Source of the DNA: an uncultured Pelagibacteraceae bacterium
GTDB taxonomy: Bacteria > Pseudomonadota > Alphaproteobacteria > Pelagibacterales > Pelagibacteraceae
Length of the DNA stretch: 64,000 bases
Direction of reading: 5' to 3'
Assembly: GCA_902606105.1 (NCBI GenBank)
Contig: CACLFK010000005.1
Span: forward strand, 1 to 64,000
The stretch's first letter is position 1; every line of letters starts with the position of its first letter. A model generated the notes under the pieces. The model was not told the origin of the DNA and searched no databases. It saw only the letters and a list, made by a program, of their open reading frames with translations. This document shows positions 20,295 to 58,618 of this stretch, in pieces. The position numbers and the translations under genes were made by a program.

Positions 20295-20322
20295 TTATTT
20301 TATAATTTTGTAATTTATATTT

Positions 20323-21072
20323 ATGTCAACTTTAAATAATCCACTATTAGAAGCAAAAGGAATTACAAAATATTTTGGAACAATTACTGCATTAGAAAAT
20401 GTGGATCTAAAAGTGCACGCAGGAGAATGTTTGGGAGTTGTTGGTGACAATGGAGCAGGCAAATCAACCCTGATGAAAGTTTTATCTGGGTTATATAAAC
20501 CTAGTTCAGGTTCACTTTATTTTCAAGGGAAAGAAAAAGTTCTAGAAAGTCCAAAAGATTCACAAAATCTAGGATTAGAAATGGTTTATCAAGACCTTGC
20601 ATTAGCTGGAAATCTACCAATAGGCGAAAACATTTTTTTAGGAAGAGAACCAACTAAAAATGTCGGTTTCTTGAAATTTTTAGACTTTAATAAAATAAAA
20701 GAATTAACAAATGCTCATTTAGGAAAACTTAAAATAAATGTTAAGAGCGCTGATCAAAAAGTCGAAGAACTCTCTGGAGGTCAAAGACAAGCAGTTGCAA
20801 TTGCAAGATCAACAGCATTTAATGCAAAAGTTGTTATTATGGATGAACCTACAGCAGCCCTAGCAATTAAAGAAGTTGGAAAAGTATTAGATCTTATTAA
20901 TAGTTTAAAAAAAACAGGTGTTGGCGTTATAGTTATAAGTCATAGAATGGATGATATTTTTTCAGTTTGTGATCGAGTGATGGCTCTATTTCAAGGAACA
21001 AATTTTGCAGAGTCTGAACTTTCAAATACTTCAAGGGACGAAGTAATTGGATGGATTATGGGTAAAAAATAA
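20323..21072 (+). CDS. Sugar/polyol ABC importer, ATPase (single-domain RbsA/FrcA type)
   Basis: The 249-residue ATPase has Walker A GDNGAGKST (41-49), the signature LSGGQRQ (150-156) and Walker B VIMDEP (171-176). It is a single nucleotide-binding domain, as in the FrcA-type subfamily, rather than the fused double domain of RbsA. It energises import by the adjacent permease and binding protein. Its stop is followed directly by the permease ATG. Position downstream of iol genes points to inositol or a related sugar. Confidence 0.9.
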   Translation: MSTLNNPLLEAKGITKYFGTITALENVDLKVHAGECLGVVGDNGAGKSTLMKVLSGLYKPSSGSLYFQGKEKVLESPKDSQNLGLEMVYQDLALAGNLPIGENIFLGREPTKNVGFLKFLDFNKIKELTNAHLGKLKINVKSADQKVEELSGGQRQAVAIARSTAFNAKVVIMDEPTAALAIKEVGKVLDLINSLKKTGVGVIVISHRMDDIFSVCDRVMALFQGTNFAESELSNTSRDEVIGWIMGKK

Positions 21073-22086
21073 ATGGAAGAAAAAGATAATAAAAAAGACA
21101 GTCTATATTTAAAGTTAATGCCTTATATTGAAAAGTACGGCATACTTTTGTTGCTCGTACTTATGATATTGGTAATGCACATCCTGCAGCCAGATGTCTT
21201 CTTATCATGGAGAAATGTAACCAACGTATTCAAACAAATCTCTTGGCAATCTATGTTAGCCTTAGGGGTCTTTATGGTCATAGTAACCGCTGGGATAGAT
21301 CTTTCTGTTGGTTCGATAATGATGTTATCATTGATGGTTTTAGCGATTGTAGCTAAAGCAGGTGCGCCATGGTTTATAGTTGTCATAACTCCTTTAATAG
21401 CAGGATTTTTATGTGGTTTGTTTAATGGAGCAGGAATTACCTTACTGAGGATGCCCCATCCATTTATAATGACCTTGGGGACACTTTATATATTTAGAGG
21501 AACAGGGAATTTAATATCTGGTGGAACTCCGATTAGTGGTTTTACAGATGAAGTTAGATATTTAGGACATGGTAGAATTGATCTTACTTGGTTAGGATTA
21601 GAAAAGTCACAATATCTGCCTGTTAGTTTAGTTTTAATTGCAGTGGTGTATGTTATTTTTTGGTTCTTTCTTAATCACAGTAGAACAGGGAAGTGGATTT
21701 ACGCAATAGGTGGAAACCCAAGTGCTGCTAGAGCATCTGGTATAAATGTAAATAAAATTTTAATTATAGTTTATTCTCTTTGTGGCTTCCTATCAGGAAT
21801 TGGAGCATTAATTTTAGCAGGAAGGACTGACTCCGGATATCCAAATGCAGGTTTACAATCCGAATTAGATGCTATTGCAGCATGCATTATTGGAGGAGCA
21901 AGTTTTTTTGGTGGAAGGGGAACGGTATTAGGAGTTTTTGCTGGTGTTATGATTATGGGTATTTTAAGAAATGGACTTAATTTGATGGATGTTAGCTCAT
22001 TTTGGCAGCAAGTTTTAATCGGCTCAATCATTGTAATAGCTGTATATATAGATGTTCTTAGAAGAGACCTTGGAACTAGAAAATAA
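21073..22086 (+). CDS. Sugar/polyol ABC importer, permease (RbsC-like)
   Basis: The 337-residue membrane protein belongs to the branched RbsC/XylH/FrcC permease family. It has about nine to ten membrane segments, the motif VTAGIDLSVGSIMML near residue 75, and IYAIGGNPSAARASGI, the cytoplasmic loop that contacts the ATPase. Its length is normal. It lies between the ATPase and the binding-protein gene, which has its own 110-bp upstream region. Confidence 0.92.
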   Translation: MEEKDNKKDSLYLKLMPYIEKYGILLLLVLMILVMHILQPDVFLSWRNVTNVFKQISWQSMLALGVFMVIVTAGIDLSVGSIMMLSLMVLAIVAKAGAPWFIVVITPLIAGFLCGLFNGAGITLLRMPHPFIMTLGTLYIFRGTGNLISGGTPISGFTDEVRYLGHGRIDLTWLGLEKSQYLPVSLVLIAVVYVIFWFFLNHSRTGKWIYAIGGNPSAARASGINVNKILIIVYSLCGFLSGIGALILAGRTDSGYPNAGLQSELDAIAACIIGGASFFGGRGTVLGVFAGVMIMGILRNGLNLMDVSSFWQQVLIGSIIVIAVYIDVLRRDLGTRK

Positions 22087-22196
22087 TTACAATTTGATTT
22101 ACACGTAAAAGTTGTTTTGACTTTATAAACAGTTGAATTTTTTCCGAAATTTTTATTTAATTTAGATTATTCAAATAACAATAGGGGAATAAATAA

Positions 22197-23129
22197 ATGA
22201 AAAAATTAACAAAAAAAATTGTTGTTCTTTTTACAACAATATTTTTATCAATTAGTTTAGGTTCAGTTTCTTTTGCTGATGGACATGGTAAAAAAATCTT
22301 GTTTAGCATTAAAGGTCCTGGATCTGGAAATCCTTTTTGGGCATCTGTAACAAAAGGTGCTGAGGAAGAAGCCAAGAAATTAGGAGTTAAATTAATTTTA
22401 ATTGCACCTCCTCAAGAAGGTGATGTTCAGGCACAAATAAATCAAGTTGAAGACCAACTTGCAAAGGGTGTAGATGCTTTAGCACTAGCACCAGGAGATC
22501 CAAATGCTTTTGCACCAATTGTTGATGATGCTATTAAAAGTGGAGTTCCAGTTGTGTTTGTTGACACTAAAGGAATTAACGAAGGTGTAACATTTATTGG
22601 AACTAACAATATGAATGGTGCAGAGTTAGCTGCAAAGTTTATTTGTGATAAAACACCAAAAGGTTCTGACGTTGCAATTTTAACTGGTATCGAGTCGCAG
22701 TCTACTGCGTTACTTAGAAGAGATGGTGCAATCAAAGGATTTAAAAACTGTGGTTTGAACATTGTTGCAACACAAACTGCAGAATGGGATACAGCAAAAG
22801 GTAGATCTGTAACAGAATCTATAATTTTGAAAAATCCTAACATTAAAGCAATATTTGCTTCTAATGACAACATGGGACTAGGTGCTATGCAAGCTCTCAA
22901 AGATGCAGATATGAATGATGTAGTGGTTGTTGGATTTGACGCTACTCCAGATGCAGCAACAAGTATCCTTAAAGGTGAAATGACAGCAACAATTGCTCAG
23001 TTCTCTTACAATATGGGTGCTTATGGTGTTAAATATGCACTTGAGTTAGCTAATGGTGGAAGTATTGATATTAACATTGATACTGGTACACAATTAGTAA
23101 CAACAGAAAATGCTAACGATTTTAAATAA
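22197..23129 (+). CDS. Periplasmic sugar/polyol-binding protein (RbsB/Peripla_BP_4 type)
   Basis: The 310-residue precursor starts with a signal peptide cleaved after about ...VSFADG. The mature part is a type I periplasmic binding protein (SGNPFWASVTKGAEEEAKKLG, then ALAPGDPNAFAP and FASNDNMGLGAMQAL). A good AGGGGA ribosome site precedes the ATG. It delivers substrate to the upstream ATPase-permease pair. Adjacent iol genes suggest inositol; adjacent fucU/ribokinase-like genes suggest a sugar. A strong terminator follows 21 bp after the stop. Confidence 0.9.
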   Translation: MKKLTKKIVVLFTTIFLSISLGSVSFADGHGKKILFSIKGPGSGNPFWASVTKGAEEEAKKLGVKLILIAPPQEGDVQAQINQVEDQLAKGVDALALAPGDPNAFAPIVDDAIKSGVPVVFVDTKGINEGVTFIGTNNMNGAELAAKFICDKTPKGSDVAILTGIESQSTALLRRDGAIKGFKNCGLNIVATQTAEWDTAKGRSVTESIILKNPNIKAIFASNDNMGLGAMQALKDADMNDVVVVGFDATPDAATSILKGEMTATIAQFSYNMGAYGVKYALELANGGSIDINIDTGTQLVTTENANDFK

Positions 23130-23150
23130 TCTTTAGAAATAATCAAAATT

Positions 23151-23184
23151 AAAGGGTGGAATTTTTATTCCACCCTTTTTTTTT
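23151..23184 (+). terminator. Intrinsic terminator after the RbsB-like gene
   Basis: A perfect 12-bp stem (AAAGGGTGGAAT at 23151-23162 and its complement at 23167-23178) with a four-T loop is followed by a T tract ending at 23184. It would end transcription right after the binding-protein gene, and limit readthrough into the fucU-like and kinase genes. Confidence 0.93.
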
Positions 23185-23202
23185 ATGTAATATAATAATT
23201 TA

Positions 23203-23664
23203 ATGTTAATTAATATTAACCCAGTTTTAAGTCCTGAATTACTATTTCATTTAAGATCCATGGGGCATGGAGAAAAATTAATTTTAGCAGATGCAAATTT
23301 TCCAGCAAATACTTCTAATGATCAGGTAATAAGATTAGATGGTGTAGATATTAAAGATGCAGCATCTGCAATTCTTTCTGTTTTTCCTCTTGATAGTTTT
23401 ATTGCTTCTCAAGGTGGATCCCCAGCTTTAAGAATGGAAGTAGATGATAAACCAGATGAGTTAACAGAAACTCACAAAGAATTTATTGAAGCGGTAAAAA
23501 AAGTTTCTGGTGGAAATTGGAAAGTTGGTTCTATTTCTAGACAAGATTTTTATAAAGAGGCAAAAAAAGCATATTGTATAGTTACAACTACTGATGCAAG
23601 ACCATTTGGATGTTTTATTTTAACTAAAGGTGTAATTTTACCAGACGGTAAGGTTTGGTCGTAA
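23203..23664 (+). CDS. RbsD/FucU-family sugar mutarotase (FucU-like)
   Basis: The 153-residue protein begins with NPVLSPELLFHLRSMGHGEKLILADANFP in two adjacent segments typical of FucU, including the conserved GHG. VIRLDGVDI and the C-terminal RPFGCFILTKGVI also fit. FucU interconverts the anomers of L-fucose; RbsD relatives act on ribose. It resembles FucU more than RbsD by eye. It is followed after 11 bp by a ribokinase-like gene, and lies just after the terminator of the ABC importer. Confidence 0.83.
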   Translation: MLININPVLSPELLFHLRSMGHGEKLILADANFPANTSNDQVIRLDGVDIKDAASAILSVFPLDSFIASQGGSPALRMEVDDKPDELTETHKEFIEAVKKVSGGNWKVGSISRQDFYKEAKKAYCIVTTTDARPFGCFILTKGVILPDGKVWS

Positions 23665-23675
23665 AAAATTAAATA

Positions 23676-24587
23676 ATGCATTCTATTTGTATATTTGGAG
23701 TTTTTGTAGCAGATCTTTGTTTTTATTCTGAAAAGATACCAATTAAAGGAGAGACAGTTCTAGGAAGAGATCATGTAGTTGGCCCAGGCGGCAAAGGCTC
23801 TAATCAAGCAATTGCTGCAGCAAGACTTAACGCAAAAGTAAATTTTATAACTAAAATGGGTGAAGATGGCCACGCAGATATGGCATTTAAAATATATAAA
23901 GATGCAGGCGTAAATACTAAATCCATAACAAAAGATAAACATTTATCTACTGGTGTTGCTGGTATAATGATTGATAATGATGGTAGTAATTCAATTAATA
24001 TTGTTCCAGGTGCAGCCGCTGAGCTAAACAATAAAGATATTGATAACAATCTAGAGATTATGAAAAAATCTAAAATTTTCCTCACTCAAATGGAAACTCC
24101 AGATGAAGTTACGATTTACTCTTTAAAAAAAGCTAAGGAAAATAAATGCTTAACTATATTAAATCCTGCACCAGCAAGAAAAATTAATGAGGAAAATTTT
24201 GCCCTATTAGATTTTTTTACACCAAATGAAACCGAGGCTGAATTCTATTTAAACAATAAAATTTCCACAGAAGAAGATTTAAAGTCTGCAGGAAGAGAAT
24301 TTTTAAAAAAAGGTGTAAAAAATATTATTATTACTTTGGGAGAAAGAGGTGTCTATTTTGCTAATGAAAATGAGGAATATTTTATTGATGCTTTAAAGCT
24401 AAAAGATCAGGTAGTTGACACCACTGGTGCTGGAGACGCATTCAATGGTGCCTTTGCAGTTGCTTTAGCAAATGATTTAAAATTCAAAGATGCATTAATT
24501 TTCGCAAATAAAGTTGCAGGTATATCCACAACTCGAGCAGGAGCAGCAAGTTCAATGCCAACACTTAAAGAAGTAAATAACTATTAA
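23676..24587 (+). CDS. PfkB-family carbohydrate kinase (ribokinase-like)
   Basis: The 303-residue kinase has both PfkB signatures: VGPGGKGSNQAIAAARL near residue 30-46 and the catalytic DTTGAGDAFNGAFAV near residue 248-262, where the Asp is the catalytic base. The segment TGVAGIMIDNDGSNSI resembles ribokinases. It would phosphorylate ribose, a deoxy-sugar or, less likely, the 2-deoxy-5-ketogluconate made in inositol breakdown. No separate IolC candidate was seen. It ends directly against a convergent dehydratase gene. Confidence 0.87.
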   Translation: MHSICIFGVFVADLCFYSEKIPIKGETVLGRDHVVGPGGKGSNQAIAAARLNAKVNFITKMGEDGHADMAFKIYKDAGVNTKSITKDKHLSTGVAGIMIDNDGSNSINIVPGAAAELNNKDIDNNLEIMKKSKIFLTQMETPDEVTIYSLKKAKENKCLTILNPAPARKINEENFALLDFFTPNETEAEFYLNNKISTEEDLKSAGREFLKKGVKNIIITLGERGVYFANENEEYFIDALKLKDQVVDTTGAGDAFNGAFAVALANDLKFKDALIFANKVAGISTTRAGAASSMPTLKEVNNY

Positions 24588-25763
24588 TTATTCTATAATA
24601 TTAAAATCAGATTTAAATTTATCAGTTATCGTTAGACCTAGTCCTGGTTTATCATCGTCAAGATTTATAAAACCATCTTTTGGTACAGGGTCACCTTCAA
24701 AAATATAATAAAACAGCTCGTTCCCTATTTCAACATCATGAACAGGAAAAAATTCTGATATCGGACAATTAAAATTTGACATTGTTAAATGGTAGTTATG
24801 CATTTGTCCCGCATGAGGAATAACTGGAACTTGATGAGCCTCTGCAATAGCGTTAATTTTTTGAGCTGCTGTAAAGCCACCAACTCTGTTATTGTCATAT
24901 TGAATATAACTAACAGCTTTGAGGTCTAATAGTTGTTTAAATCCAAATATATTAAACTCATGTTCACCTCCAGAAATTGGGATCATATTTATGTTATTTA
25001 ATTCAGCATAGCCATTAATATCATCTGCAATAACTGGTTCTTCTAACCATCTCGGATTGAATTTCATTAATTTTGGAATCATTCTTTTTGCATAATCTAA
25101 GTTCCAACCCATATAACATTCCATCATCAAATCTTTATCTTCACCAATTACTTCTCTAACTGCTTCTGCAAGTGCAATATTTTTTTTCATACCTTCAGAC
25201 CCATCTTTTGGGCCCCAACCAAATCTCATCTTAAACATACTAAAACCTTGTTTTACGTAACTTTCAGCTTCACTTTGTAAATCCTTGATAGGTTGGCTAT
25301 AAAGTTTTGAAGCATAAACAGGGATTTTTTCTTTAGTTCTTCCACCAAGAAGTTTGAATATAGGTTTTTTTGTAATTTTACCCATTACATCCCAGATTGC
25401 GATATCAATAGCTGAAATAGCTACCATACCTATTCCCCTTCGACCCCAAGCATGAGTTCTTCTATACATTTTTTCCCATATGTATGCGTAGTCGAATGGA
25501 TCTTCTCCAATTACTAAAGGTTTCAAGTAAGTATCAATAATCTTTTTTGCAACTTGAGGTGCTAAAGCTGCATTTCCAATTCCAATTACACCATCATCAG
25601 TTTCAATTTCGCAAATTAACCACTCATGAAATCTAAATGAACCCATAGCATCAGATTTTTCGAATAGAAGATCAGAAGCGTTGGTACAGAAATTATTCTG
25701 TGGAGGAACTGTTTTACCATTCCATTGATAAACTTTTGTTCTAATTTCTTTAATTTTTGTCAT
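24588..25763 (-). CDS. Enolase-superfamily sugar-acid dehydratase (mandelate racemase subgroup)
   Basis: The 391-residue protein has the N-terminal capping domain and C-terminal barrel of the mandelate racemase/muconate lactonizing group. Likely metal ligands are acidic residues in [15 protein letters not shown] and SGGEHEF, and the catalytic His is in [12 protein letters not shown]. It resembles dehydratases often annotated as L-rhamnonate dehydratase, with [19 protein letters not shown] near the N-terminus. It would form a 2-keto-3-deoxy sugar acid. Its exact substrate cannot be fixed by eye. It overlaps the upstream pdxA-like gene by one base. Confidence 0.87.
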
Positions 25764-26758
25764 TATCTATTTTTATTCTCAGCCATTGTTAATGCAATTT
25801 TGAATGAATTCAAAGTAGGTTCTAAATTTGCTTTATTTTTTCCAGCAATATCAAACGCTGTACCGTGAGCAGGAGTAGTAATTGGTAAAGGTAATCCTCC
25901 TTGTACAGTAACTCCTTTATCAAAACCAAATGCTTTTAAGCCTGACTGAAGTGCATCATGATACATCCCAACTATACAATCATGATTTTTATTTTTATAT
26001 GCAGTTATAAAAGAAGTATCGCATGGTAATGGTCCATCAGCATCAATACCTATTTTTTTAGCTTCTTCTATTGCAGGAATAATTTCCTCTTTTTCTTCCG
26101 TTCCAAACTCAGCATGTGGATTAAGAGCTTGAACAGCAACCCTAGGGGTCTTTATTCCATTTAATTTCATAGCTTCATTAATAAGTTTGATAGGTTTTAA
26201 AATATTTTCTTTTTTTACATGATTTGGAACTTCTTTAATTGGAATATGTGAAGTCACCCTTGCTGTCCAGAAATTATCAATAACATTAAATTCACAAAAG
26301 AAATTTTTTACTTCTAATTTCTCAGCCATAAGATGCAATTCATCTGAATATTTATTCCCACCAAGTTTTAAACTAGTTTTATTAAATGGTCCAAAATTTA
26401 TTGCCTGTATTTTATTTTCTTTAGCTAATTTCAAAGCTAAATTTAAAGCTGATAATACACTTTCGCCCGACTCTTTTGAACATTCCGATAGTTTATAATC
26501 ATGGTTTTTACCTTTAGAAATATCTAAAAAAAATTTGTCACCACCTTGAAAATTAATTTCATTAAAATCTTCAACAAATTTTAAATTAATTTTTTTACCT
26601 GAAATTTTTAATCCATTTTCTAATATATTTTTTTCCCCAATAATAATTATGTTAGCTTTATTAGTAATTTCCTCAGATAATAATCTAGTGACCAATTCGG
26701 GTCCAATACCTGACGGGTCACCAAGAAGAAGAGCAATATTAATTTTATTTTGGTTCAT
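25763..26758 (-). CDS. PdxA-family dehydrogenase (probably PdxA2, four-carbon sugar-acid phosphate type)
   Basis: The 331-residue protein has the PdxA family start [14 protein letters not shown], a metal-site His in [12 protein letters not shown], and [16 protein letters not shown] and [13 protein letters not shown] near the C-terminus. Canonical PdxA works in vitamin B6 synthesis. PdxA2 paralogues next to sugar-acid genes oxidise phosphorylated threonate or erythronate. The coupling to a sugar-acid dehydratase and divergence from a TctC-type gene favour the PdxA2 role; this is inference. Confidence 0.86.
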
Positions 26759-26827
26759 TTTTTTCTTTACGCTGTGTATCAGATTATGATTAAATTATTA
26801 ATTATAAATTAACTATAGAGGGAAATA

Positions 26828-27802
26828 ATGAAAAAAAGTTTTAAATTATTTTTAGCTGCCGCTTTTTTGGTAACTGAATTTTTCGTTGTAGCACTTCCAC
26901 TAATGATTACATCTGCTAAAGCAGATGGTCACCCAATTCAAGCAGTAACTCATGCTGGTTTTGGTGGTGGAACGGATGTAACTACTAGAATGATGTTATT
27001 AAGAACTAGAAGGTATCTAAAACAAGATATGCAATTAGTTAACAAAAAAGGAGGTGGTGGAGCTGCATCTATGGATTATATGATGACTTTACCAGCAGAT
27101 GGAAATCATACTTTAACTTGGACTACTGGACATGCTGTATCTATGGCGTTAGGAAAAACCAAAGTTAAATTAAGCGATATGCAACCGTTAGCAAGAGGAA
27201 CTGATGATCCACAATTATTTGTTGTTAATTGTAAAAATGACATCAAAGATGCTAACAAGTTTATTAGTGCTCAAAAATCTAAATCATTAAAGTATGGAAC
27301 AACTCACGTAGGTGGTATTGACGATGTAAGTGCTATTGCTTTTACTAAAAAAGGTAAACTTACAGATCCAACAATCGTAGCTTATAAAGGTGTAGGACCT
27401 ATTAAAACTAACCTTATCAAAGGAGATATTGATGTAGGTGTTTTAAACTTAGGCGAAGCGGTTACTGAAATAGAAGATGGTACTTTATGTGTGTCAGTTG
27501 TCTTAGCAAGTAACAGAATGGAAAAATTAAGCAATGTTCCTACTGCTACTGAATTAGGAATTCCAGTTGTTTTATCTACAGTTAGAGGCTTTGTAACAAA
27601 AAAAGGTGTACCTGCTGATAGAAAAAAACAATTAGAGGATGCAATGATAAAAGCTATGGAACATAAATATTTCCAAAGTTTTTTAACTGACATTGGTCTT
27701 GATTCAACTAGTGTAGTTGGAGCTGATGAGTGGGGCAAGCAAATGGAAACTATGCTTGCAGAAATGACTGCTCAACTTAAAGCTTTAGGTTACATTAAGT
27801 AA
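26828..27802 (+). CDS. Tripartite tricarboxylate transporter binding protein (TctC/Bug family)
   Basis: This 324-residue precursor has a signal peptide ending near ...TSAKADG, then the Bug-family fold (THAGFGGGTDVTTRMM, KKGGGGAASMDYM). A GAGGGAA ribosome site precedes the ATG. Such proteins capture carboxylates or sugar acids in the periplasm for the TctAB membrane pair encoded next. A strong terminator begins 42 bp after its stop. The divergent sugar-acid dehydratase operon starts 69 bp upstream, suggesting a sugar acid as ligand. Confidence 0.9.
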   Translation: MKKSFKLFLAAAFLVTEFFVVALPLMITSAKADGHPIQAVTHAGFGGGTDVTTRMMLLRTRRYLKQDMQLVNKKGGGGAASMDYMMTLPADGNHTLTWTTGHAVSMALGKTKVKLSDMQPLARGTDDPQLFVVNCKNDIKDANKFISAQKSKSLKYGTTHVGGIDDVSAIAFTKKGKLTDPTIVAYKGVGPIKTNLIKGDIDVGVLNLGEAVTEIEDGTLCVSVVLASNRMEKLSNVPTATELGIPVVLSTVRGFVTKKGVPADRKKQLEDAMIKAMEHKYFQSFLTDIGLDSTSVVGADEWGKQMETMLAEMTAQLKALGYIK

Positions 27803-27826
27803 TTTAAATTAAGTACATTTCTCAAT

Positions 27827-28333
27827 ATGAATAATGTACGTTATAAAAAAAGGGCAAACAAAAGTTTGCCCTTTTTTTTTAGGACAGAATTTAAAGTTTT
27901 TTTTATAATTATTTTAGTTTCAACAATTTTACTAATATCAACTTTTTCATTTGATACTGTTCCACCAATTTTAAACAGAGGTATTCAACCAGCAACATTC
28001 CCAAAGGGATTACTTGTTTTAATTATAGCTTTAACTTCAATTATTTATTATTTATCTTTCAAAAAACCTTGGAAAAAAGAAAAAAATTTACCAAAGCCTT
28101 TTTTTTTCACAATTTTAAGTTTCTTTATTTTTATAATCATCTCAAAAACTTTAGATTTTTTTTTAGCAATTTCAGTATTGTCAGTTTTTGTATCTTATCA
28201 CTGGGGTGAAAGAAGAACTTTTTATTTATTACTAGTAAGTATAATTTTTCCACTAATTGTTTTTATTTTTTTTGAAATGATTTTAGGACTAAGATTTCCT
28301 CCCGGAATAATCACTAATCTTTATTACTATTAA
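27827..28333 (+). CDS. Tripartite tricarboxylate transporter small membrane subunit (TctB)
   Basis: The 168-residue protein has about four membrane segments, as TctB does, and lies between tctC- and tctA-like genes. The start is uncertain. The only in-frame ATG is at 27827, upstream of an intrinsic terminator at 27845-27880. The other option is a TTG at 27866 inside the hairpin. Either way the beginning of the coding region is overlapped by the terminator, so expression needs readthrough. It stops one base before the TctA start region. Confidence 0.8.
   Translation: MNNVRYKKRANKSLPFFFRTEFKVFFIIILVSTILLISTFSFDTVPPILNRGIQPATFPKGLLVLIIALTSIIYYLSFKKPWKKEKNLPKPFFFTILSFFIFIIISKTLDFFLAISVLSVFVSYHWGERRTFYLLLVSIIFPLIVFIFFEMILGLRFPPGIITNLYYY
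27845..27880 (+). terminator. Intrinsic terminator after tctC, overlapping the tctB start
   Basis: A 15-bp stem (A-rich arm with AGGGCAAAC at 27851-27859, complementary arm starting GTTTGCCC at 27864) with a four-A loop is followed by a T tract to 27880. The A-rich left arm means it may also work on the other strand. It sits inside the predicted tctB reading frame and would reduce transport-subunit expression relative to the binding protein. Confidence 0.9.
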
Positions 28334-28334
28334 C

Positions 28335-29816
28335 ATGGATAATTTAATTTTAATGATGGCCCCTTTGTTTAGTTCAAAGCTATTATTAGTTTTGTTATTT
28401 GGAACTTTGTTTGGATTAGTTTTAGGAGTTCTGCCCGGTTTAGGACCCACAACAGGTGGTGCATTAATATTACCTTTTACAATGACTTTGGATCCTCTGT
28501 CTGCAATTGTTTTATTAACCTCAATTTACTGTGCTGGAACATATGGAGGGGCGATTACTGCTGTATTAATTAATACACCAGGAACACCCGCAGCTGCAGC
28601 AACTTGCTTAGATGGATATCCATTAGCTCAAAAAGGTGAGGCAGGTAGAGCTTTAGGCATGGCAACAGTTTCAAGTACAGTTGGTGGGATATTTAGTGTA
28701 GTCGTATTAGTATTTTTTGCACCAATATTGGCAAATCTTGCATATGAATTTGGTCAACCTGAATATTTTGCTTTAGCAATTTTTGGTTTAACAATGTTAG
28801 CTTCAATAGGGGATGGTAGTCCAATAAAGAATTTAATAGCAGGAGCTTTTGGAATTTTAATTTCTACAGTTGGTAAAGACTTTATGACTTCAATAGATAG
28901 ATTTACTTATGGTATTAATGAACTTTCAGTAGGTATAGGATTTATACCAGTTGTTGTTGGGTTATTTGCGATAAGTGAAATGCTAACTCAATCTACATTA
29001 CTTAAACAAGTATTTAAGAGGGTAGCTTTAAAAGCTATAAAACTTCCAAGTAAAGAGGACTATAAAAAAACTTGGAAAACAATTCTTAGATCTAGTGGAA
29101 TAGGATCATTTATAGGAGTATTGCCAGCTGAGGGAGGAACAGTAGCATCTTTGATTGGTTATTCAGAGGCAAAAAGATTTTCAAAAAATCCTGAAGAATT
29201 TGGAAAAGGTTCTGTTGAAGGAATTGCAGGGGCAGAGGCAGCAAACAATGCTGCTACAGGTGGAGCTATGGTACCGACTTTAGCGCTTGGAATTCCTGGA
29301 AGTGCAACTACAGCAGTTATTTTAACAGGATTAATAATACATGGAGTTAGACCTGGACCAGATCTATTTAAAGAACAACCAGAATTTCTTTATGGAATTT
29401 TTGGTGCAATGTTAGTGGCAAATATATTGTTTTTCATTTTTGGTTTCTTTGGTGCAAAAATTTTTGCAAGAATTACTCTTGTACCTAATAAAATTTTATG
29501 GCCAATGATATTTGCAGTTTCAGTTTGTGGAACTTACTCACTAAGCCAATCAATAATTGATGTATGGATAATGTTATTTTTTGGTGTGTTAGGTTTTTTT
29601 ATGAGAAGGTATGGTTTTTCTGTAGTACCAGTAATTATAGGACTGATTTTAGGAGAACTTGTAGAGGGGACTTTGAGGCAATCAATTGTAATATTTGATG
29701 GAAACTGGCTTATGTTTTTAACAAGACCGATTGCTTTAACATTCTTTATTTTATCTTTAATTGCACTTGCTTTTCCATTAATAAGATCAAAAAAAAATAA
29801 AAAACCTTATGATTAA
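28335..29816 (+). CDS. Tripartite tricarboxylate transporter large permease (TctA)
   Basis: The 493-residue protein has about ten to twelve membrane segments and the TctA signatures GLVLGVLPGLGPTTGGA near the N-terminus, TYGGAITAVLINTPG, and EAANNAATGGAMVPTLALG in the middle. It forms the channel of a sodium- or proton-driven importer with TctB and TctC. It starts one base after the TctB stop and overlaps the next SDR gene by 8 bp, linking transport with metabolism. Confidence 0.93.
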   Translation: MDNLILMMAPLFSSKLLLVLLFGTLFGLVLGVLPGLGPTTGGALILPFTMTLDPLSAIVLLTSIYCAGTYGGAITAVLINTPGTPAAAATCLDGYPLAQKGEAGRALGMATVSSTVGGIFSVVVLVFFAPILANLAYEFGQPEYFALAIFGLTMLASIGDGSPIKNLIAGAFGILISTVGKDFMTSIDRFTYGINELSVGIGFIPVVVGLFAISEMLTQSTLLKQVFKRVALKAIKLPSKEDYKKTWKTILRSSGIGSFIGVLPAEGGTVASLIGYSEAKRFSKNPEEFGKGSVEGIAGAEAANNAATGGAMVPTLALGIPGSATTAVILTGLIIHGVRPGPDLFKEQPEFLYGIFGAMLVANILFFIFGFFGAKIFARITLVPNKILWPMIFAVSVCGTYSLSQSIIDVWIMLFFGVLGFFMRRYGFSVVPVIIGLILGELVEGTLRQSIVIFDGNWLMFLTRPIALTFFILSLIALAFPLIRSKKNKKPYD

Positions 29817-30558
29817 GTTTGATATAGAAAATAGAGTAGCTGTTGTAACGGGTGGGGCCCAAGGATTTGGCTTAGCAATAACAGAAAGATTTATAGAGTC
29901 AGGAGCTAAAGTTGTCATTTGGGATATTGATGAAAATGAAGCTAAAAAAGCTATGGAAAAAGTAAAATCTAAAAATTTATCTTATCAAATAGTAGATGTG
30001 AGTGATTTCAATAAGATTAATGAAAAATTAAATGAAATCGAAAGCATGCATGGAAAAATAGATATTTTTATAAATAATGCTGGTGTAGCAGGTATGAATA
30101 CTACAGTTGCACAATATCCAATAGAAGAGTGGAATAAAGTAATTAATTTAAATCTAAATGCAGTTTTTTATTGTTGTAAAGCTGTTGTTCCTTTTATGGA
30201 AAAAAATAATTATGGGAGAATAGTAAACATAGCATCCATAGCTGGAAAAGAAGGTAATCCTAATGCAAGTGCATATAGCACTTCAAAAGCTGGAGTAATT
30301 GGGCTAACTAAATCATTAGGAAAAGAGCTTGCTCAAAAAAATATAGCAGTAAACTGCGTTACTCCTGCTGCCGCAAAAACAAGAATTTTTGATCAAATGA
30401 CTGAAGAACATATAAATTATATGCTTTCAAAAATTCCAAGAAATAAGTTTGCAAAAGTTGAGGAATTAGCGTCCTTAGTTACATGGTTATCTAGCGAAGA
30501 AAATTCATTTTCAACAGCTGCTGTTTTTGATTTAAGCGGTGGTAGAGCTACATATTAA
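29809..30558 (+). CDS. Short-chain dehydrogenase/reductase (FabG-like, sugar-acid type likely)
   Basis: The 249-residue SDR has the cofactor motif TGGAQGFG, the NNAG motif, catalytic Ser in NIASIAGK and the YxxxK motif in YSTSKAG. FabG-like members in sugar-acid operons oxidise 2-keto-3-deoxy acids or other hydroxy-acids; true 3-oxoacyl-ACP reductase is less likely here. It is translationally coupled to tctA by an 8-bp overlap and is followed 2 bp later by a ROK kinase, so all belong to one operon. Confidence 0.88.
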   Translation: MIKFDIENRVAVVTGGAQGFGLAITERFIESGAKVVIWDIDENEAKKAMEKVKSKNLSYQIVDVSDFNKINEKLNEIESMHGKIDIFINNAGVAGMNTTVAQYPIEEWNKVINLNLNAVFYCCKAVVPFMEKNNYGRIVNIASIAGKEGNPNASAYSTSKAGVIGLTKSLGKELAQKNIAVNCVTPAAAKTRIFDQMTEEHINYMLSKIPRNKFAKVEELASLVTWLSSEENSFSTAAVFDLSGGRATY

Positions 30559-30560
30559 TT

Positions 30561-31463
30561 ATGCAAATAGGTATAGATGTTGGTGCTACAAAAATAGAAA
30601 CTGTGGTCTTGGAACAAAATGGTCAAGAGAAACACAGATCCCGGACCGCATGTCCCAAAGATTATTTATCAATAATTAATGCTATTAAAGATATCAGTCA
30701 AAAATTAGAAAAAGAATTTAAAATAGAATTACCTATAGGAGTATGTCACCCAGGAATTCATTCTCCTCAAACAGGTTTAGTAAAAAATGCACCAAATTGT
30801 TATTGGCTTGAAAAAAAACCTTTTCAAAATGATCTACGTAAAGCACTCGGTAAAGAGGTTTTTTGTGAAAATGATGCAAATTGTTTTGCATTATCTGAAG
30901 CAATTGATGGTTCAGGAAAAAATTACAAAATAGTTTATGGTATTATTTTAGGTTCAGGAGCTGGAGGTGGACTTGTAATTAACAAACAAATTATAAGTGG
31001 TCCAAATGGAGTAGCGGGTGAGTGGGGACATAATCAAATTCCATACTTTGCAGCAAAAAAAGAAAATTTTGACTCAAACAATGCAAGAGAGGCTGAAATT
31101 GAAAGTTTTATTTCTGGTCTGGGTTTAGCTAAAAGATTTAACAAACTACATGGAAAAAATTTAAAAACAAATGAGATTTTTGAATTAAATCGTAAACATG
31201 ATTTAGACGCAGAAAAATTTATAGATAATTTTAAAGTAAATCTAGCCATGTCTCTTTCAAGTATTATAAATATTTTAGATCCTGATGCTTTTATATTTGG
31301 CGGTGGAGTTTCAAATGAAATTGATTTTTTAAGTGAAGTTGAGTCTATGGTTAAGAAATTTGTTATAGGAAAAGAATATCAAGGGGTTTTTTTAAAACCA
31401 AAGTTTGGTGATGCAAGTGGTGTTAGAGGTGCAGCTCGTCTTGGTAGAATTTTAGAAAATTGA
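30561..31463 (+). CDS. ROK-family sugar kinase, without the usual zinc-binding cysteines
   Basis: The 300-residue protein starts with the phosphate-binding GIDVGATKIE, has GVCHPGIHS, the catalytic Asp in ENDANCFA, and LGSGAGGGLV. The family's zinc motif of cysteines after GEWGHNQ is missing: the region reads FAAKKENFDSNNARE with no Cys. Some ROK kinases lack zinc. It resembles fructokinase or N-acetylhexosamine kinases, but substrate is unknown. It is the last gene of the tct-SDR operon. Confidence 0.87.
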   Translation: MQIGIDVGATKIETVVLEQNGQEKHRSRTACPKDYLSIINAIKDISQKLEKEFKIELPIGVCHPGIHSPQTGLVKNAPNCYWLEKKPFQNDLRKALGKEVFCENDANCFALSEAIDGSGKNYKIVYGIILGSGAGGGLVINKQIISGPNGVAGEWGHNQIPYFAAKKENFDSNNAREAEIESFISGLGLAKRFNKLHGKNLKTNEIFELNRKHDLDAEKFIDNFKVNLAMSLSSIINILDPDAFIFGGGVSNEIDFLSEVESMVKKFVIGKEYQGVFLKPKFGDASGVRGAARLGRILEN

Positions 31464-31516
31464 TTTTTCAATCTCAAATTGAATTATAAAATAAGCATTA
31501 CACTTTTTATTTAAAT

Positions 31517-31596
31517 AGTTGATAAAAAAACTAAAAAAAAAATATCAACTTTAGATTGTAAAAGATCTTTTTAATTTACTTTATGCCCACAATCTA
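31517..31596 (+). promoter_or_regulatory. Two 8-bp inverted repeats upstream of the second ABC importer
   Basis: The 189-bp gap before the binding-protein gene holds AGTTGATA (31517-31524) paired with TATCAACT (31543-31550), and TAGATTGT (31552-31559) paired with ACAATCTA (31589-31596). They could be operators or consecutive stem-loops of a transcribed leader. No known riboswitch class is recognised. The rest of the gap is AT-rich without a clear gene. Confidence 0.35.
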
Positions 31597-31652
31597 CCTA
31601 TAGTCTCATTTTATATAAAAAAACTACAAATAACTAAAAGGGAAGATAAGAT

Positions 31653-32909
31653 ATGAGAAAATTATTAATCGCTTTGATTGCATTTGCATTTACATCTACT
31701 TCATCTTATGCGGGACCAAAAATTGAGGTTTTGCACTGGTGGACATCAGGTGGTGAGGCAGCTGCTTTAAAAGTTTTAAAAGATGATTTTGCCGCTAATG
31801 GTGGTGAGTGGTTAGACATGCCTGTAACAGGTGGTGGTGGTGACGCTGCTAACGTTGCTTTAAAGGCAAGAATTGTTGCCGGTGATCCTCCATCTGCTTC
31901 ACAAATTAAAGGTCCTACAATTCAAGAGTATGACCAAGAAGGTGTCGTAGCTCCATATAACATAGACTCTATTGCTCAATCTGAAGATTGGGATAATTTA
32001 TTAGATCCTATGATTGCAGCTATTCACAAATGTGAAAATAATAGCGGACCTTATTGTGCTGCTCCAGTAAATATTCACAGAATTGACTGGATGTGGGCTA
32101 ATAAAGCTGTATTTGATGCAAATGGTATTTCTGTTCCAACTACATGGGATGAACTAAATGCTGCTGCAGAAAAATTGAAAGGTGCTGGTATTATTCCTTT
32201 TGCTCATGGTGGACAAGCTTGGCAAGATGCCACAGTTTTTGAAGCAGTTGCTATGGGTTTAGGTGGTAACAACTATTACAAAAATTGTTATGTAGATCTA
32301 AAAGAAAGCTGTTTAAGAAGCGAAACTACGGTTAAAGTTTTTGATCAAATGAGAAAACTACAAAGTTATACTGACGAAGGTAGTCCAGGAAGAGACTGGA
32401 ACGTAGCTACCGGTATGGTAATTGAAGGTAAAGCTGGTTTTCAAATTATGGGTGACTGGGCTAAAGGAGAGTTTACAGCTGCTGGTAAAGTTCCAGGTGT
32501 AGACTATTATTGTGCTGCAACCCCATCAAACAACGGTTATTTATATAACGTAGATAGCTTTATTTTTTATAAATCTAGCGATCCAGATAAACAAGCTGGC
32601 CAAAAATTATTGGCTAAACTGATGATGGGTAAAAACTTTCAAAAAGTTTTCAACTTATACAAAGGTTCAATACCAGCTCGTCTAGACGTATCAATGGATG
32701 AGTTTGATAAGTGTGCAAAAACATCTAATGCAGATATTAAAACTGCAGGTGCAAAAGGTGGACTTGTTCCAAGTTTTGCTCATGGTATGGCTCAAGGAAA
32801 TACGATGAAAGCTGCACTGCAAGATATAATTACAGAACACTTTAATTCTGATATGTCTTCAGTAGATGCTGCAAACGCATTAGCTGACTCAGTTTTAGCT
32901 AATATGTAG
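31653..32909 (+). CDS. Sugar ABC importer, family 1 extracellular solute-binding protein
   Basis: The 418-residue precursor has a signal peptide ending ...TSSYAGP and a mature family 1 binding-protein fold (VLHWWTSGGEAAALK, then GFQIMGDWAKGEF). It resembles the binding proteins of glucose/mannose or disaccharide importers more than UgpB; the ligand is not identified. An AAGGGAAGA ribosome region precedes the ATG. A terminator follows 12 bp after the stop, ahead of two permeases and an ATPase. Confidence 0.9.
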   Translation: MRKLLIALIAFAFTSTSSYAGPKIEVLHWWTSGGEAAALKVLKDDFAANGGEWLDMPVTGGGGDAANVALKARIVAGDPPSASQIKGPTIQEYDQEGVVAPYNIDSIAQSEDWDNLLDPMIAAIHKCENNSGPYCAAPVNIHRIDWMWANKAVFDANGISVPTTWDELNAAAEKLKGAGIIPFAHGGQAWQDATVFEAVAMGLGGNNYYKNCYVDLKESCLRSETTVKVFDQMRKLQSYTDEGSPGRDWNVATGMVIEGKAGFQIMGDWAKGEFTAAGKVPGVDYYCAATPSNNGYLYNVDSFIFYKSSDPDKQAGQKLLAKLMMGKNFQKVFNLYKGSIPARLDVSMDEFDKCAKTSNADIKTAGAKGGLVPSFAHGMAQGNTMKAALQDIITEHFNSDMSSVDAANALADSVLANM

Positions 32910-32921
32910 TTCACAAAAATT

Positions 32922-32954
32922 AAAAGGCCACTTTTATCAAAGTGGCCTTTTTTT
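32922..32954 (+). terminator. Intrinsic terminator after the sugar-binding protein gene
   Basis: A 13-bp stem (AAAAGGCCACTTT at 32922-32934 and its complement at 32939-32951) with a TATC loop ends in a run of T to 32954. It separates the binding-protein gene from the permease gene that starts 22 bp later. Confidence 0.93.
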
Positions 32955-32975
32955 CAATCAAAAAAAATATTTACA

Positions 32976-33851
32976 ATGTTCAAGTGGTTAGAGAAAAATT
33001 TGCCAAAAATTGTAATGGCTCCAGCAGTTGGGTTAATAGGTTGGTTTGTTTACGGTTTTGTACTTTGGACTTTATATATATCTTTTACAAATTCAAAAAT
33101 ATTACCTAAATATGAATTATGGGGATTTGGACAATATGAAAAGTTATGGGTATCAAGAAAGTGGCTCATATCAGTTGATAATTTACTGGTATTCACTGCA
33201 TTATTTTTAATATTTTGTATCGTTATAGGAATAATTTTAGCTATTTTTCTAGATCAAAAAATTAGAGCTGAGGGAGTTTTAAGAACAATATATTTATACC
33301 CGATGGCACTCTCTTTTATTGTTACTGGAACAGCTTGGAAATGGATTTTAAATCCAACCCTAGGAATTCAAAAAATGTTTATAGATTGGGGTTTTGAGAA
33401 TTTTACATTCGATTGGCTGGTTAATCGAGAAATGGCCATTTACACCATTGTTATAGCCGGTGTTTGGCAATCTGCTGGTTTTGTAATGGCTTTATTTTTA
33501 GCAGGATTGAGATCTGTTGAGGATGAGATCGTTAAAGCGGCTAAGATCGATGGTGCTGGTTTATTCATTGTTTATTGGAAAATTTTATTGCCAATGATGA
33601 GGCCAGTATTTTTCACCAGTTTTGTAATTTTGGTTCATATCTCGATTAAAAGTTATGATTTAATTGTAGCTCTTACACAAGGAGGACCAGGTATTTCTAC
33701 TACCATGCCAGCTTTATTTATGACACAAGCAGCATTTCATAAAAGTCAAGTAGGTTTGTCTGCAGCGAGCGCAATGATGATGTTTATGGCTGTAGCTGCA
33801 GTAATAATTCCATATTTATATTCTGAACTGAGGAGAGAAAATGCAAGATAA
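32976..33851 (+). CDS. Sugar ABC importer, permease 1 (MalF/UgpA type)
   Basis: The 291-residue protein has six membrane segments and the EAA loop motif EIVKAAKIDGAGLFIVYWKI near residues 182-200 that contacts the ATPase. With permease 2 it forms the channel. Its start lies just after the terminator of the binding-protein gene. Its end overlaps permease 2 by 11 bp. Confidence 0.93.
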   Translation: MFKWLEKNLPKIVMAPAVGLIGWFVYGFVLWTLYISFTNSKILPKYELWGFGQYEKLWVSRKWLISVDNLLVFTALFLIFCIVIGIILAIFLDQKIRAEGVLRTIYLYPMALSFIVTGTAWKWILNPTLGIQKMFIDWGFENFTFDWLVNREMAIYTIVIAGVWQSAGFVMALFLAGLRSVEDEIVKAAKIDGAGLFIVYWKILLPMMRPVFFTSFVILVHISIKSYDLIVALTQGGPGISTTMPALFMTQAAFHKSQVGLSAASAMMMFMAVAAVIIPYLYSELRRENAR

Positions 33852-34746
33852 TTTACAATCTTCTTCTTATAAAGAACTAGAGCAAAAGTCTAAATATACA
33901 AATATGTTTTTACGATGGTTTTTATATTTTGTTTTAATTCTTTTTGCTTCTTATTTTATTTTTCCTCTTTATGTAATGGTTGTAACTTCACTAAAAACAA
34001 TGGAAGAAATTCGACAAGGTACACTTTTAACTTGGCCAAGCTCGTTAAATTTTGACTCATGGTTAGTAGCTTGGGGTGGAAGAGGTTACGGAGCAGGAGA
34101 CACTTTTTTAAGACCTTATTTTTGGAATTCAATTAAGATGGTTGTGCCAGCAGTTTTTTTTTCAACATTTATAGGAGCAATGACTGGTTATGTTTTAACA
34201 AAATGGAGATTTAAAGGAGATCAGTGGGTTTTTCTCTTTTTATTATTTGGATGTTTTATCCCTTTCCAAGCAATATTACTCCCTATGGCTAGAACACTTG
34301 GAACTTTAGGAATATCAAATTCAGTTGTAGGTCTTGTATTGGTTCATACAGTTTATGGAATTCCGTTTACTACTTTATTTTTTAGAAATTATTATATTTC
34401 AGTACCAACTGAATTAGTGAAAGCAGCTCGAATAGATGGGGCAGGTTTTTTTAAAATATTTTTTAAAATTTTACTTCCTATTTCGGCGCCAATTATAGTT
34501 GTAACTGTTATCTGGCAGTTTACTCAAATTTGGAATGACTTTCTGTTTGGATCAACTTTTTCATTTGGTGAGGCTGCCCCAATTCAAGTTGCTTTAAATA
34601 ACATGGTTTTATCAAGCACAAGTGTTAAAGAGTATAACGTCGATATGGCCTCAGCTATAATAGCAGGTATTCCTACACTTATTGTATACGTTTTAGCAGG
34701 AAAATATTTTATTAGAGGATTAACTTCAGGAGCTGTGAAAGGATAA
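33841..34746 (+). CDS. Sugar ABC importer, permease 2 (MalG/UgpE type)
   Basis: The 301-residue protein has six membrane segments and the EAA motif ELVKAARIDGAGFFKIFFKI near residue 195. The family features VVTSLKTMEEI in the first periplasmic region and a C-terminal RGLTSGAVKG are also clear. The overlap with permease 1 and the 2-bp gap to the ATPase gene indicate one operon. Confidence 0.93.
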   Translation: MQDNLQSSSYKELEQKSKYTNMFLRWFLYFVLILFASYFIFPLYVMVVTSLKTMEEIRQGTLLTWPSSLNFDSWLVAWGGRGYGAGDTFLRPYFWNSIKMVVPAVFFSTFIGAMTGYVLTKWRFKGDQWVFLFLLFGCFIPFQAILLPMARTLGTLGISNSVVGLVLVHTVYGIPFTTLFFRNYYISVPTELVKAARIDGAGFFKIFFKILLPISAPIIVVTVIWQFTQIWNDFLFGSTFSFGEAAPIQVALNNMVLSSTSVKEYNVDMASAIIAGIPTLIVYVLAGKYFIRGLTSGAVKG

Positions 34747-34748
34747 AA

Positions 34749-35843
34749 ATGAAAACTTTAAAAATTGAAGAACTATCAAAAAACTTTGGAACGACTGAGG
34801 TATTAAGAAAAATTAATTTAGAAATTGATGAAGGAAATTTTTTAGTTCTATTAGGGCCGTCTGGATGTGGTAAGTCAACACTTTTAAATATTATTGCAGG
34901 TCTTGAAACAATCAATGAGGGGAATGTTTTTATAGACGATTATAATGTCAGTAAAGTAGAGCCAAAAGACAGAAATATTGCAATGGTTTTTCAATCCTAT
35001 GCACTTTATCCTTCAATGAATGTTAAAGAAAATATGATTTTTGGCCTTAAACAAGCCAAAACTTCAAAAGAGAAGATTGCCGAACAATTAGAAAAAGTTT
35101 CAACGTTTTTACAAGTGGATAAATTATTAGAGAGAAAACCTTCTCAATTATCTGGAGGTCAAAGGCAGAGAGTTGCTATTGGTAGAGCCTTAGTAAGAGA
35201 GCCAAGAATTTTTTTATTTGACGAACCACTATCCAATTTAGATGCAAAATTAAGAGTTGAGATGAGAAGAGAAATCAAAAAACTTCATCAACAACTAAAA
35301 ACTACAGTAGTTTATGTTACTCATGACCAGACTGAAGCTATGAGTTTGGGGACTAAAATTGCCATAATGAACCATGGAGTTATTCAGCAAAATGATACTC
35401 CAGAAAATATTTATAACAAACCTAGTAATACTTTTGTTGCAGATTTTGTCGGTTCTCCTTCGATGAATTTAATTAAAGGTAAATTAATCCAAAATTCAAA
35501 TAATATTTCTTTCATTGCTGAAGGCTCTAATTTAGAGGTTCCGATCAATAATTATGATTTTAATGAGAAGTCAGATTTAAATAATAAAGAAATATATTTT
35601 GGTATTAGGCCAGAGCATATTTATTTCAAAAAATTAAATGAGGATGACTTTGATATTAATCTACGAGCTGATTTAAGTGAGTACATTGGGCATGAACAAA
35701 TAGTCACATTAGACTATTCAAACCAAGAAATTTTGGCAAAGTTTCCATCTACTATTAAAATTGAGCTTGAAAAAGAAGTAAAATTATATTTTGATCTAAA
35801 ACATACGTCATTATTTGATTTAAAAACAAAGGAAAGACTTTAA
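34749..35843 (+). CDS. Sugar ABC importer, ATPase (UgpC/MsmK/MalK type)
   Basis: The 364-residue ATPase has Walker A GPSGCGKST near 37-45, Q-loop VFQSYALYPSMNV, signature LSGGQRQR, Walker B IFLFDEP and the H-loop YVTHDQTEAM. A C-terminal MOP-like domain of about 120 residues (from around 240) fits the MalK type. It powers the adjacent permeases. The next gene, an aldose dehydrogenase-like SDR, follows after 2 bp. Confidence 0.94.
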   Translation: MKTLKIEELSKNFGTTEVLRKINLEIDEGNFLVLLGPSGCGKSTLLNIIAGLETINEGNVFIDDYNVSKVEPKDRNIAMVFQSYALYPSMNVKENMIFGLKQAKTSKEKIAEQLEKVSTFLQVDKLLERKPSQLSGGQRQRVAIGRALVREPRIFLFDEPLSNLDAKLRVEMRREIKKLHQQLKTTVVYVTHDQTEAMSLGTKIAIMNHGVIQQNDTPENIYNKPSNTFVADFVGSPSMNLIKGKLIQNSNNISFIAEGSNLEVPINNYDFNEKSDLNNKEIYFGIRPEHIYFKKLNEDDFDINLRADLSEYIGHEQIVTLDYSNQEILAKFPSTIKIELEKEVKLYFDLKHTSLFDLKTKERL

Positions 35844-35845
35844 TT

Positions 35846-58578: not shown

Positions 58579-58618
58579 AACAGCCCTGATGTAAAAATAC
58601 ACGTTAGGGCTGTTTCTA
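58579..58618 (+). terminator. Intrinsic terminator after HU
   Basis: AACAGCCCTGATGT pairs with ACGTTAGGGCTGTT (58579-58592 with 58601-58614) to give a 14-bp stem with two G:T pairs and an 8-base loop, followed by a short T-rich end. It terminates the HU transcript ahead of the amt promoter region. Confidence 0.85.

Follow-up and report, generated by a model that had tools for sequence, protein, structure and literature searches.

Hairpins with T tracts behind the substrate-binding protein genes of SAR11 transporters and their reading as partial terminators

Why would a hairpin of the intrinsic terminator type stand directly behind one gene of a transport system when further genes continue on the same strand? 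The question is raised by a stretch of 64,000 nucleotides (nt) from an uncultured Pelagibacteraceae bacterium of the SAR11 group (the window: positions 1 to 64,000 of contig CACLFK010000005.1, here contig C5, of assembly GCA_902606105.1, a genome of 1.03 Mb in 49 contigs referred to as G000), in which three genes for substrate-binding proteins (SBPs) are each followed by such a hairpin. All three lie in a sugar and acid uptake region at 16 to 37 kb, recognized from Pfam matches and gene order, that holds an ATPase-permease-RbsB-RbsD-RbsK set, a TctC-TctB-TctA set, and a family 1 SBP with two permeases and a MalK-type ATPase. An earlier note on this DNA had proposed that the layout gives a high ratio of binding protein to permease through partial termination and that it reflects a general rule. 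The analysis described here confirms that the hairpins are real, shows that SAR11 SBP genes are strongly enriched for them, and finds partial termination to be the best reading for two of the three. The three SBP genes and their hairpins (H1 to H3) are as follows.

22197..23129, + strand: rbsB-like SBP gene (Peripla_BP_4; Pfam PF13407, 213 bits)
23151..23178, + strand: H1, 12-bp hairpin with a loop of 4 and a T tract to 23184 (scan, fold, shuffles)
26828..27802, + strand: tctC-like SBP gene (PF03401, 60.7 bits)
27845..27878, + strand: H2, 15-bp hairpin with a loop of 4 and a T tract, inside the tctB frame (scan, fold, shuffles, alignment)
31653..32909, + strand: family 1 SBP gene (SBP_bac_1; PF01547)
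32922..32951, + strand: H3, 13-bp hairpin with a loop of 4 and a T tract (scan, fold, shuffles)

The note had described a perfect hairpin of 12 to 15 base pairs (bp) and a T tract within about 12 to 45 bp behind each SBP gene, and this description held. The stems have 12, 15 (outer A-T pairs included), and 13 uninterrupted pairs for H1, H2, and H3, respectively, and begin 21, 42, and 12 nt past the stop codons of the RbsB, TctC, and SBP_bac_1 genes. Behind or at the stem end, 9/9, 8/9, and 7/9 positions are T. RNA folding gave z scores of -4.66, -7.26, and -6.30, with 0/200 shuffles as good in each case, and dinucleotide shuffling of the three regions yielded a strong U-tract hairpin in 1/1000, 1/1000, and 0/1000 trials. 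A chance origin is ruled out by these shuffles and by the control genes described below. A repeat of the REP (repetitive extragenic palindromic) type was rejected in a search that covered H1, whose region matched only itself and its own reverse strand in its own genome. No known riboswitch or other Rfam cis-element matched at the gathering threshold anywhere in the 64-kb window. Four of the 73 window genes have a U-tract hairpin with a free energy (dG) of -10 or lower within 110 nt of the stop codon, namely, the three SBP genes and a gene for HU. The HU gene (58293-58568) is followed, 10 nt past its end, by a 14-bp hairpin at 58579-58614 with 6/9 T and a dG of -21. Another window gene (43569-44843, - strand, 424 amino acids [aa]) has a perfect hairpin without a U tract 25 nt past its 3' end.

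The proposed general rule was taken up in a survey of SBP loci of seven Pfam families fetched from SAR11 genomes, consisting of the matches listed with their loci, up to 30 per search (loci are numbered with L, genomes with G). The scan accepted an uninterrupted stem of at least 7 pairs, at least 3 of them G-C, with a dG of -10 or lower and at least 6 T in 9 nt, within 110 nt of the stop codon. The count leaves out L157 and 16 sub-threshold PF13407 loci, as well as L010 and L040, neither of which had a usable gene; two OpuAC loci below the Pfam cut-off (L177 and L178) were retained. The 157 SBP loci counted include the window's own three and many orthologs; because orthologs are not independent, the SBPs were also grouped at 55% identity by single linkage, giving 49 groups. 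Control genes came from sampled stretches of G012 (800 kb), a congeneric genome in a single contig, and of the window's own genome (459 kb, window included). Genes were called by a simple script, with start positions that are possibly off, and SBPs among the control genes were flagged by hidden Markov models from the surveyed loci, which left some SBPs among the "other" genes.

A U-tract hairpin was found after 76 of the 157 SBP loci. First, by family, the counts were 10/27 for TctC, 11/34 for SBP_bac_1, 10/11 for Peripla_BP_4, 15/30 for DctP, 7/14 for SBP_bac_3, 9/20 for LivK, and 14/21 for OpuAC. Second, other genes rarely have such a hairpin: it was present at 8/823 and 5/489 non-flagged genes of G012 and G000, respectively (13/1312 in total), compared to 5/9 and 5/8 flagged SBPs of the same stretches (Fisher p = 5e-15), and in 3/3140 shuffled SBP downstream regions. 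Third, at the level of ortholog groups, 20/49 have at least one U-tract hairpin and 19/49 have it in a majority of members. When hairpins with any tail within 80 nt were counted, the figures rose to 105/157 loci and 35/49 groups, compared to 15/823 (G012) and 14/489 (G000) other genes, or 29/1312. Finally, the stems of several ortholog groups differ in sequence and still pair (OpuAC L164/L165/L175, DctP L106/L112/L117, and LivK L141/L143/L146); stem sequences were used here instead of an automatic count of compensatory changes, which misaligns some groups (e.g., TctC and SBP3). The general rule of 3' hairpins at SAR11 SBP genes is supported, though not as a universal one.

Among RbsB-type loci of non-SAR11 Alphaproteobacteria, a U-tract hairpin follows 4/28 SBPs (28 usable of 29 fetched) and 1/56 flanking genes; this is below the 10/11 of the SAR11 RbsB-type loci, yet the sample is too small for a conclusion. 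In G037, from another Pelagibacterales family, a strong U-tract hairpin was present at 1/410 sampled genes, and zero SBPs were flagged in those stretches. At convergent gene ends of non-flagged genes, strong U-tract hairpins are rare (2/194 in G012 and 1/138 in G000).

What the hairpins might do depends on the genes around them, which are given below with the putative ribosome-binding (Shine-Dalgarno [SD]-like) sites of the SBP genes.

20323..21072, + strand: ATP-binding cassette (ABC) ATPase gene, upstream of rbsB (Pfam and gene order)
21073..22086, + strand: ABC permease gene (BPD_transp_2), upstream of rbsB (Pfam)
22183..22187, + strand: SD-like AGGGG before rbsB (sequence, motif test)
23203..23664, + strand: rbsD-like gene (RbsD_FucU; Pfam), starting 24 nt past the H1 stem
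23676..24587, + strand: rbsK-like PfkB kinase gene (Pfam)
26818..26822, + strand: SD-like GAGGG before tctC (sequence, motif test)
27827..28333, + strand: tctB-like gene; PF07331 matches residues 26-158, and the first 25 codons, where H2 lies in frame, are outside the match
28335..29816, + strand: tctA-like gene (PF01970)
31638..31645, + strand: SD-like AAGGGAAG before the family 1 SBP gene (sequence, motif test)
32976..35843, + strand: genes for two permeases (BPD_transp_1) and a MalK-type ATPase (Pfam), the first starting 24 nt past the H3 stem

An enolase-family (MR_MLE) gene and a PdxA-family gene lie on the - strand at 24588-26758, between the rbs and tct systems.

Same-strand genes do follow all three SBP genes, as the note had said, namely, RbsD/RbsK, TctB/TctA, and the two permeases with the ATPase, but H2 does not occupy a gap, since the tctB frame already starts at 27827 and includes it. 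Across the survey, 62 of the 115 SBP loci with a same-strand neighbor within 200 nt have a U-tract hairpin. The distance from the end of its stem to the next start has a median of 18.5 nt and is below 40 nt in 52/62 cases, 10 of which, all tct, have the hairpin inside the next open reading frame (ORF). It is 24 nt at both H1 and H3. Since a promoter with its leader has no room in such gaps, the next genes most likely depend on read-through. A second contrast concerns translation. An SD-like motif precedes 61/62 hairpin-bearing SBP genes, compared to 4/62 of the next genes and 227/1276 of all genes, which suggests that translation forms a second layer on top of termination.

We give a probability of about 0.62 to the reading that partial termination behind the SBP gene is combined with weak downstream translation. 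The SBP gene would be a fixed high-expression cassette, preceded by a strong ribosome site of its own and followed closely by an intrinsic terminator. Most RNA polymerases that have passed the SBP gene would halt at the hairpin, and the minority that reads through would supply the next genes, which also lack an SD site. The outcome would be much SBP and little of the next product, i.e., permease parts at H2 and H3 and RbsD/RbsK at H1, and the hairpin left at the 3' end would probably protect the SBP mRNA too. At H2 and H3, partial termination is preferred because no ordinary promoter fits between the hairpin and the next gene, and the high ratio of SBP to permease put forward in the note remains the best reading there. 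It does not apply at H1, which can only set RbsB against RbsD/RbsK because the ATPase and permease genes precede rbsB. A literature search for transcript ratios of SBP to permease in SAR11 found none for these genes.

A number of observations weigh against this reading. First, 29/49 SBP groups are without any U-tract hairpin, and 14/49 are without a strong hairpin of any tail. Second, 30 of the 105 strong SBP hairpins have no U tract (75/105 have at least 6 T), and one of these 30 belongs to L068, which is the H3 gene's ortholog in G012. Third, a U-tract hairpin stands at 12/27 SBP genes with a converging neighbor, where there is no downstream gene to lower; the hairpin is therefore not tied to operon layout. 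Fourth, SBPs without a U-tract hairpin often have an SD-like site too (60/79), so that the site marks SBPs rather than hairpins, and the anti-SD sequence used could not be confirmed in these genomes. Fifth, a -10-like TATAAT or TATAGT (23191-23196 in the window) is found 6 nt before the rbsD start in 6/7 loci shown. Finally, with only 12 nt between it and the stop codon, H3 could be covered by a ribosome that terminates there. The lambda terminator tR2 offers a scale for this effect (PMC4824070). In Escherichia coli, tR2 is stronger the farther it lies from the stop codon, rising from almost no activity to about 0.9 beyond 30 bp; it is almost fully repressed at short distances, ranges from 0.12 to 0.8 at 17 to 18 nt, and is at or near full strength at a placement comparable to that of H2. 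By this analogy, H2 would rank as strong and H1 as intermediate, and the ribosome that finishes SBP translation would affect H3 the most.

It is quite possible, though the odds are somewhat against it, that the hairpins do no more than block run-on transcription behind any gene that is transcribed very highly and that SBPs stand out through their abundance alone. The 13 non-flagged genes with a U-tract hairpin bear on this point. Two of them are SBPs by Pfam (L187, PBP_like_2; L192, SBP_bac_8), and one (L332) sees the hairpin of a converging livK. The remaining carriers encode GroEL (two), MetK, an OmpA-family protein, Csp, an SSF symporter, HU, a 76-aa ORF, and two porin-like proteins (one Pfam-supported); a few of the "other" genes in the any-tail scan also look like SBPs. 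The top transcripts of strain HTCC7211 in the Red Sea include potD, tauA, opuAC, dctP, hupA, groL, yjcG, and ompA, along with tuf, amt, dnaK, ftsH, and others (PMC5069720, Table 2), and the same kinds of gene (SBPs, groL, hupA, yjcG, and ompA) carry hairpins in the surveyed SAR11 stretches. Against a role for abundance alone, RpoC, one of two GlnA genes, and one of two Csp genes have room behind them and no hairpin. This housekeeping control, with genes chosen by motifs, is weak, since most of its genes abut the next gene: FusA, AtpA, RpoB, AcpP (two), IlvC (two), H+-PPase, and the other GlnA have no hairpin and no room, the next gene lying within 9 nt, and these motifs located no gene for Tuf, DnaK, or Amt in the sampled control stretches. 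SBP genes are the foremost carriers of the hairpin, followed by genes for a few other abundant products, and abundance may underlie its presence at both.

A second alternative, possible but rather unlikely as the main function, is that the hairpins shield SBP mRNA from 3'-5' decay, a longer transcript being cleaved farther downstream and then shortened up to the hairpin, as at malE-malF and other SBP genes of E. coli. In the ABC operons found there, the stabilized gene is invariably the SBP gene, at any operon position, its hairpin raising the SBP share, and 26/34 stabilized first genes have a 3' hairpin without a U tract (PMC5927463). SAR11 hairpins likewise follow SBP genes in varied places, at convergent ends and, in rbs, after the permease gene, and those without a U tract make mRNA protection a serious partner or rival of termination. 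However, the E. coli set was chosen to exclude gene pairs with U-tract terminators (PMC5927463). Its hairpins have no U tract, whereas the window's three have 7 to 9 T of 9, as do most SBP hairpins in the survey at the level of at least 6 T; a stable SBP 3' hairpin of the malE-malF kind is thus absent at H1 to H3 and present at 30 other SBP loci. Strong hairpins without a U tract lie between the SBP gene and the next gene at L004, L005, and L006 (a TctC group) and at L124-L128 (all five of one SBP_bac_3 group), and these are candidates for protective hairpins. Both kinds of hairpin may have in common that they protect the 3' end of the SBP mRNA, an end produced by termination where there is a U tract and by trimming where there is none.

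The tct system has a second structure in front of H2.

27813..27839, + strand: hairpin A, arms GTACATT/AATGTAC, 13-nt loop containing the tctB start codon at 27827-27829 (fold, alignments)

Both structures were followed in 81 sequences, comprising the window and 80 TctC relatives (89 to 100% identical, from Pelagibacteraceae or Pelagibacterales; 59 distinct regions), two of them cut by contig ends. In the window, the starts compatible with TctB are the ATG at 27827, which follows the tctC stop by 24 nt, and a TTG within H2, and the window sequence has no in-frame ATG, GTG, or TTG after H2, before and through the first membrane segment. H2 starts 18 nt downstream of the A of the ATG at 27827, and 79/79 readable sequences have it within the first codons of tctB, in frame. 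The distance from the tctC stop to the tctB ATG covers 18 to 27 nt and all three phases, in contrast to the distance from this ATG to the GGG of H2, which is 25 nt in 78/79 sequences and 24 nt in one, and the ORF stays open (168 codons in 72 sequences, 169 in six, and 139 in one). At L289, H2 has one extra stem pair (GGGACAAAC/GTTTGTCCC), and the frame is kept through other length changes. Codons 8 to 18 of tctB hardly vary, silent sites included, compared to later codons, which vary freely and often silently. Hairpin A (GTACATT...ATGAATAATGTAC) keeps the tctB start codon in a loop of 9 to 15 nt between nearly invariant arms, which read GTACATT/AATGTAC in 79/80 sequences where it was found and GATGTAC in one. 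Its motif occurs in 89/367 fetched loci, all tct. The 17 TctC loci of other groups are without a U-tract hairpin, and three of them (L004-L006) have a U-less one close behind the stop.

A single-sequence fold of the window shows hairpin A. RNAalifold with 18 tct sequences recovered H2 only, with no alternative antiterminator, and probably missed hairpin A because the variable loop shifts its arms. Two-sided changes appeared in 2/14 pairs; they match the paired insertion of L289 and are probably an alignment effect. We read hairpin A and H2 as a putative built-in limiter of tctBA. Terminators placed in the first 100 bp of a coding region in E. coli were not repressed by the ribosome (PMC4824070), and an unconditional limiter is therefore favored. 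A more elaborate version of this idea is speculative and unlikely as a whole: the tctB start would be a stoichiometry switch in which an in-frame terminator and a start codon in the loop of a second hairpin let ribosomes leaving tctC set the TctC excess, the tctB start, and read-through together. In addition, hairpin A would prevent ribosomes from loading onto terminated RNAs, which have a tctB start and no stop codon, and SAR11 would reserve strong terminators, and less so SD sites, for such cassettes instead of regulation by transcription factors. Doubtful to a greater degree is a conditional attenuator, in which ribosomes leaving tctC open hairpin A, restart at tctB, and block the folding of H2 when close behind the polymerase, so that tctBA tracks translation. 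The fixed frame and spacing of H2 behind a variable gap and the confinement of the hairpin A motif to tct loci would suit it. The E. coli result, the alignment fold with H2 as its only element, and the nearly invariant arms of hairpin A, which leave covariation unable to test it, do not. Leader-peptide attenuators such as pyrBI (as described in PMC4824070) similarly have a terminator inside a translated frame, but tctB is a full-length protein gene for which no antiterminator was predicted. The likeness to tR2 lies in an activity set by stop-codon distance and position in the coding region, although tR2 in that work is an engineered reporter and not a natural conserved element (PMC4824070).

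The remaining alternative is that termination at the hairpins is complete and that each next gene is transcribed from a promoter of its own, possibly a leaderless one. After H1 and H3, no sigma-70-like site (at least 9/12, + strand) is contained entirely in the gap before the next start; a match starting at 32970 has its -10 ending at 32999, inside the permease gene. A promoter-like match after H2, at 27881-27909, is inside tctB, and its TATAAT is kept in 4/18 aligned sequences (the window, L278, L281, and L282). A scan of 20000-36000 gave 58 sites compared to 69.1 expected in shuffles and is uninformative as promoter evidence. A leaderless rbsD promoter is conceivable at H1, since the -10-like box precedes the rbsD start, and may possibly exist there. 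Although U-rich stem-loops can exceed 90% termination (PMC9045158), complete termination is very unlikely as a general account, given the short spacings from stem to next start, the hairpins inside the next ORF, and the position and poor conservation of the match after H2.

The closest known system is that of cellulolytic Clostridia, in which internal intrinsic terminators follow the SBP genes of ABC importers (Wu et al. 2022, PMC9045158). Two U-rich (type I) stem-loops tested after SBP genes there terminated at more than 90%, SBP transcripts were in excess, and the tails ranged from U-rich to U-poor. As in that system, a stem-loop stands right past the SBP stop in a transporter operon at H1, H2, and H3. 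A same-strand downstream translocator follows at H2 (tctB, tctA) and H3 (permeases, ATPase) and does not at H1, and the next genes would mostly be without their own promoter by their spacing, yet with the sequence-based reservation of the -10-like box before rbsD. SAR11 differs in that the pattern extends to tripartite (TctC) and TRAP (DctP) systems, that few other genes have hairpins, that there is an SD contrast, that one terminator lies inside the next reading frame, and that termination is predicted from sequence. In SAR11 itself, the "rhtB element" of "Candidatus Pelagibacter ubique" is a conserved hairpin, sometimes near livM/livK, with poly-U behind about half of the cases, and was read as a possible terminator (PMC2704228). 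In contrast to the hairpins described here, it is a single bulged, sequence-conserved motif near rhtB that the relevant passages of that article do not describe as following SBP genes generally. In the open-license literature searched, no report of SBP-linked terminators or hairpins in SAR11 was found. Terminators after SBP genes in Clostridia, protective hairpins after SBP genes in E. coli, and the SAR11 rhtB hairpin as a possible terminator were already published; new, as far as the open-license literature searched shows, are the presence of this pattern in SAR11 ABC, TRAP, and tripartite systems, in otherwise hairpin-poor genomes, the SD contrast, and the in-frame tctB terminator.

These features may be viewed in light of how SAR11 bacteria live. 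They subsist by binding scarce nutrients with abundant periplasmic proteins, and the hairpin probably lets the cell make far more binding protein than the adjacent pump or enzymes. A fixed cis-element, with an SD site in front and a hairpin behind, that sets the SBP share would explain an SBP excess without regulation, in organisms that have few transcriptional regulators (PMC13198564). The in-frame tctB hairpin would be an uncommon natural example of a terminator retained within a protein-coding gene, and the cassette pattern would help to predict from sequence which parts of a transporter are made in excess.

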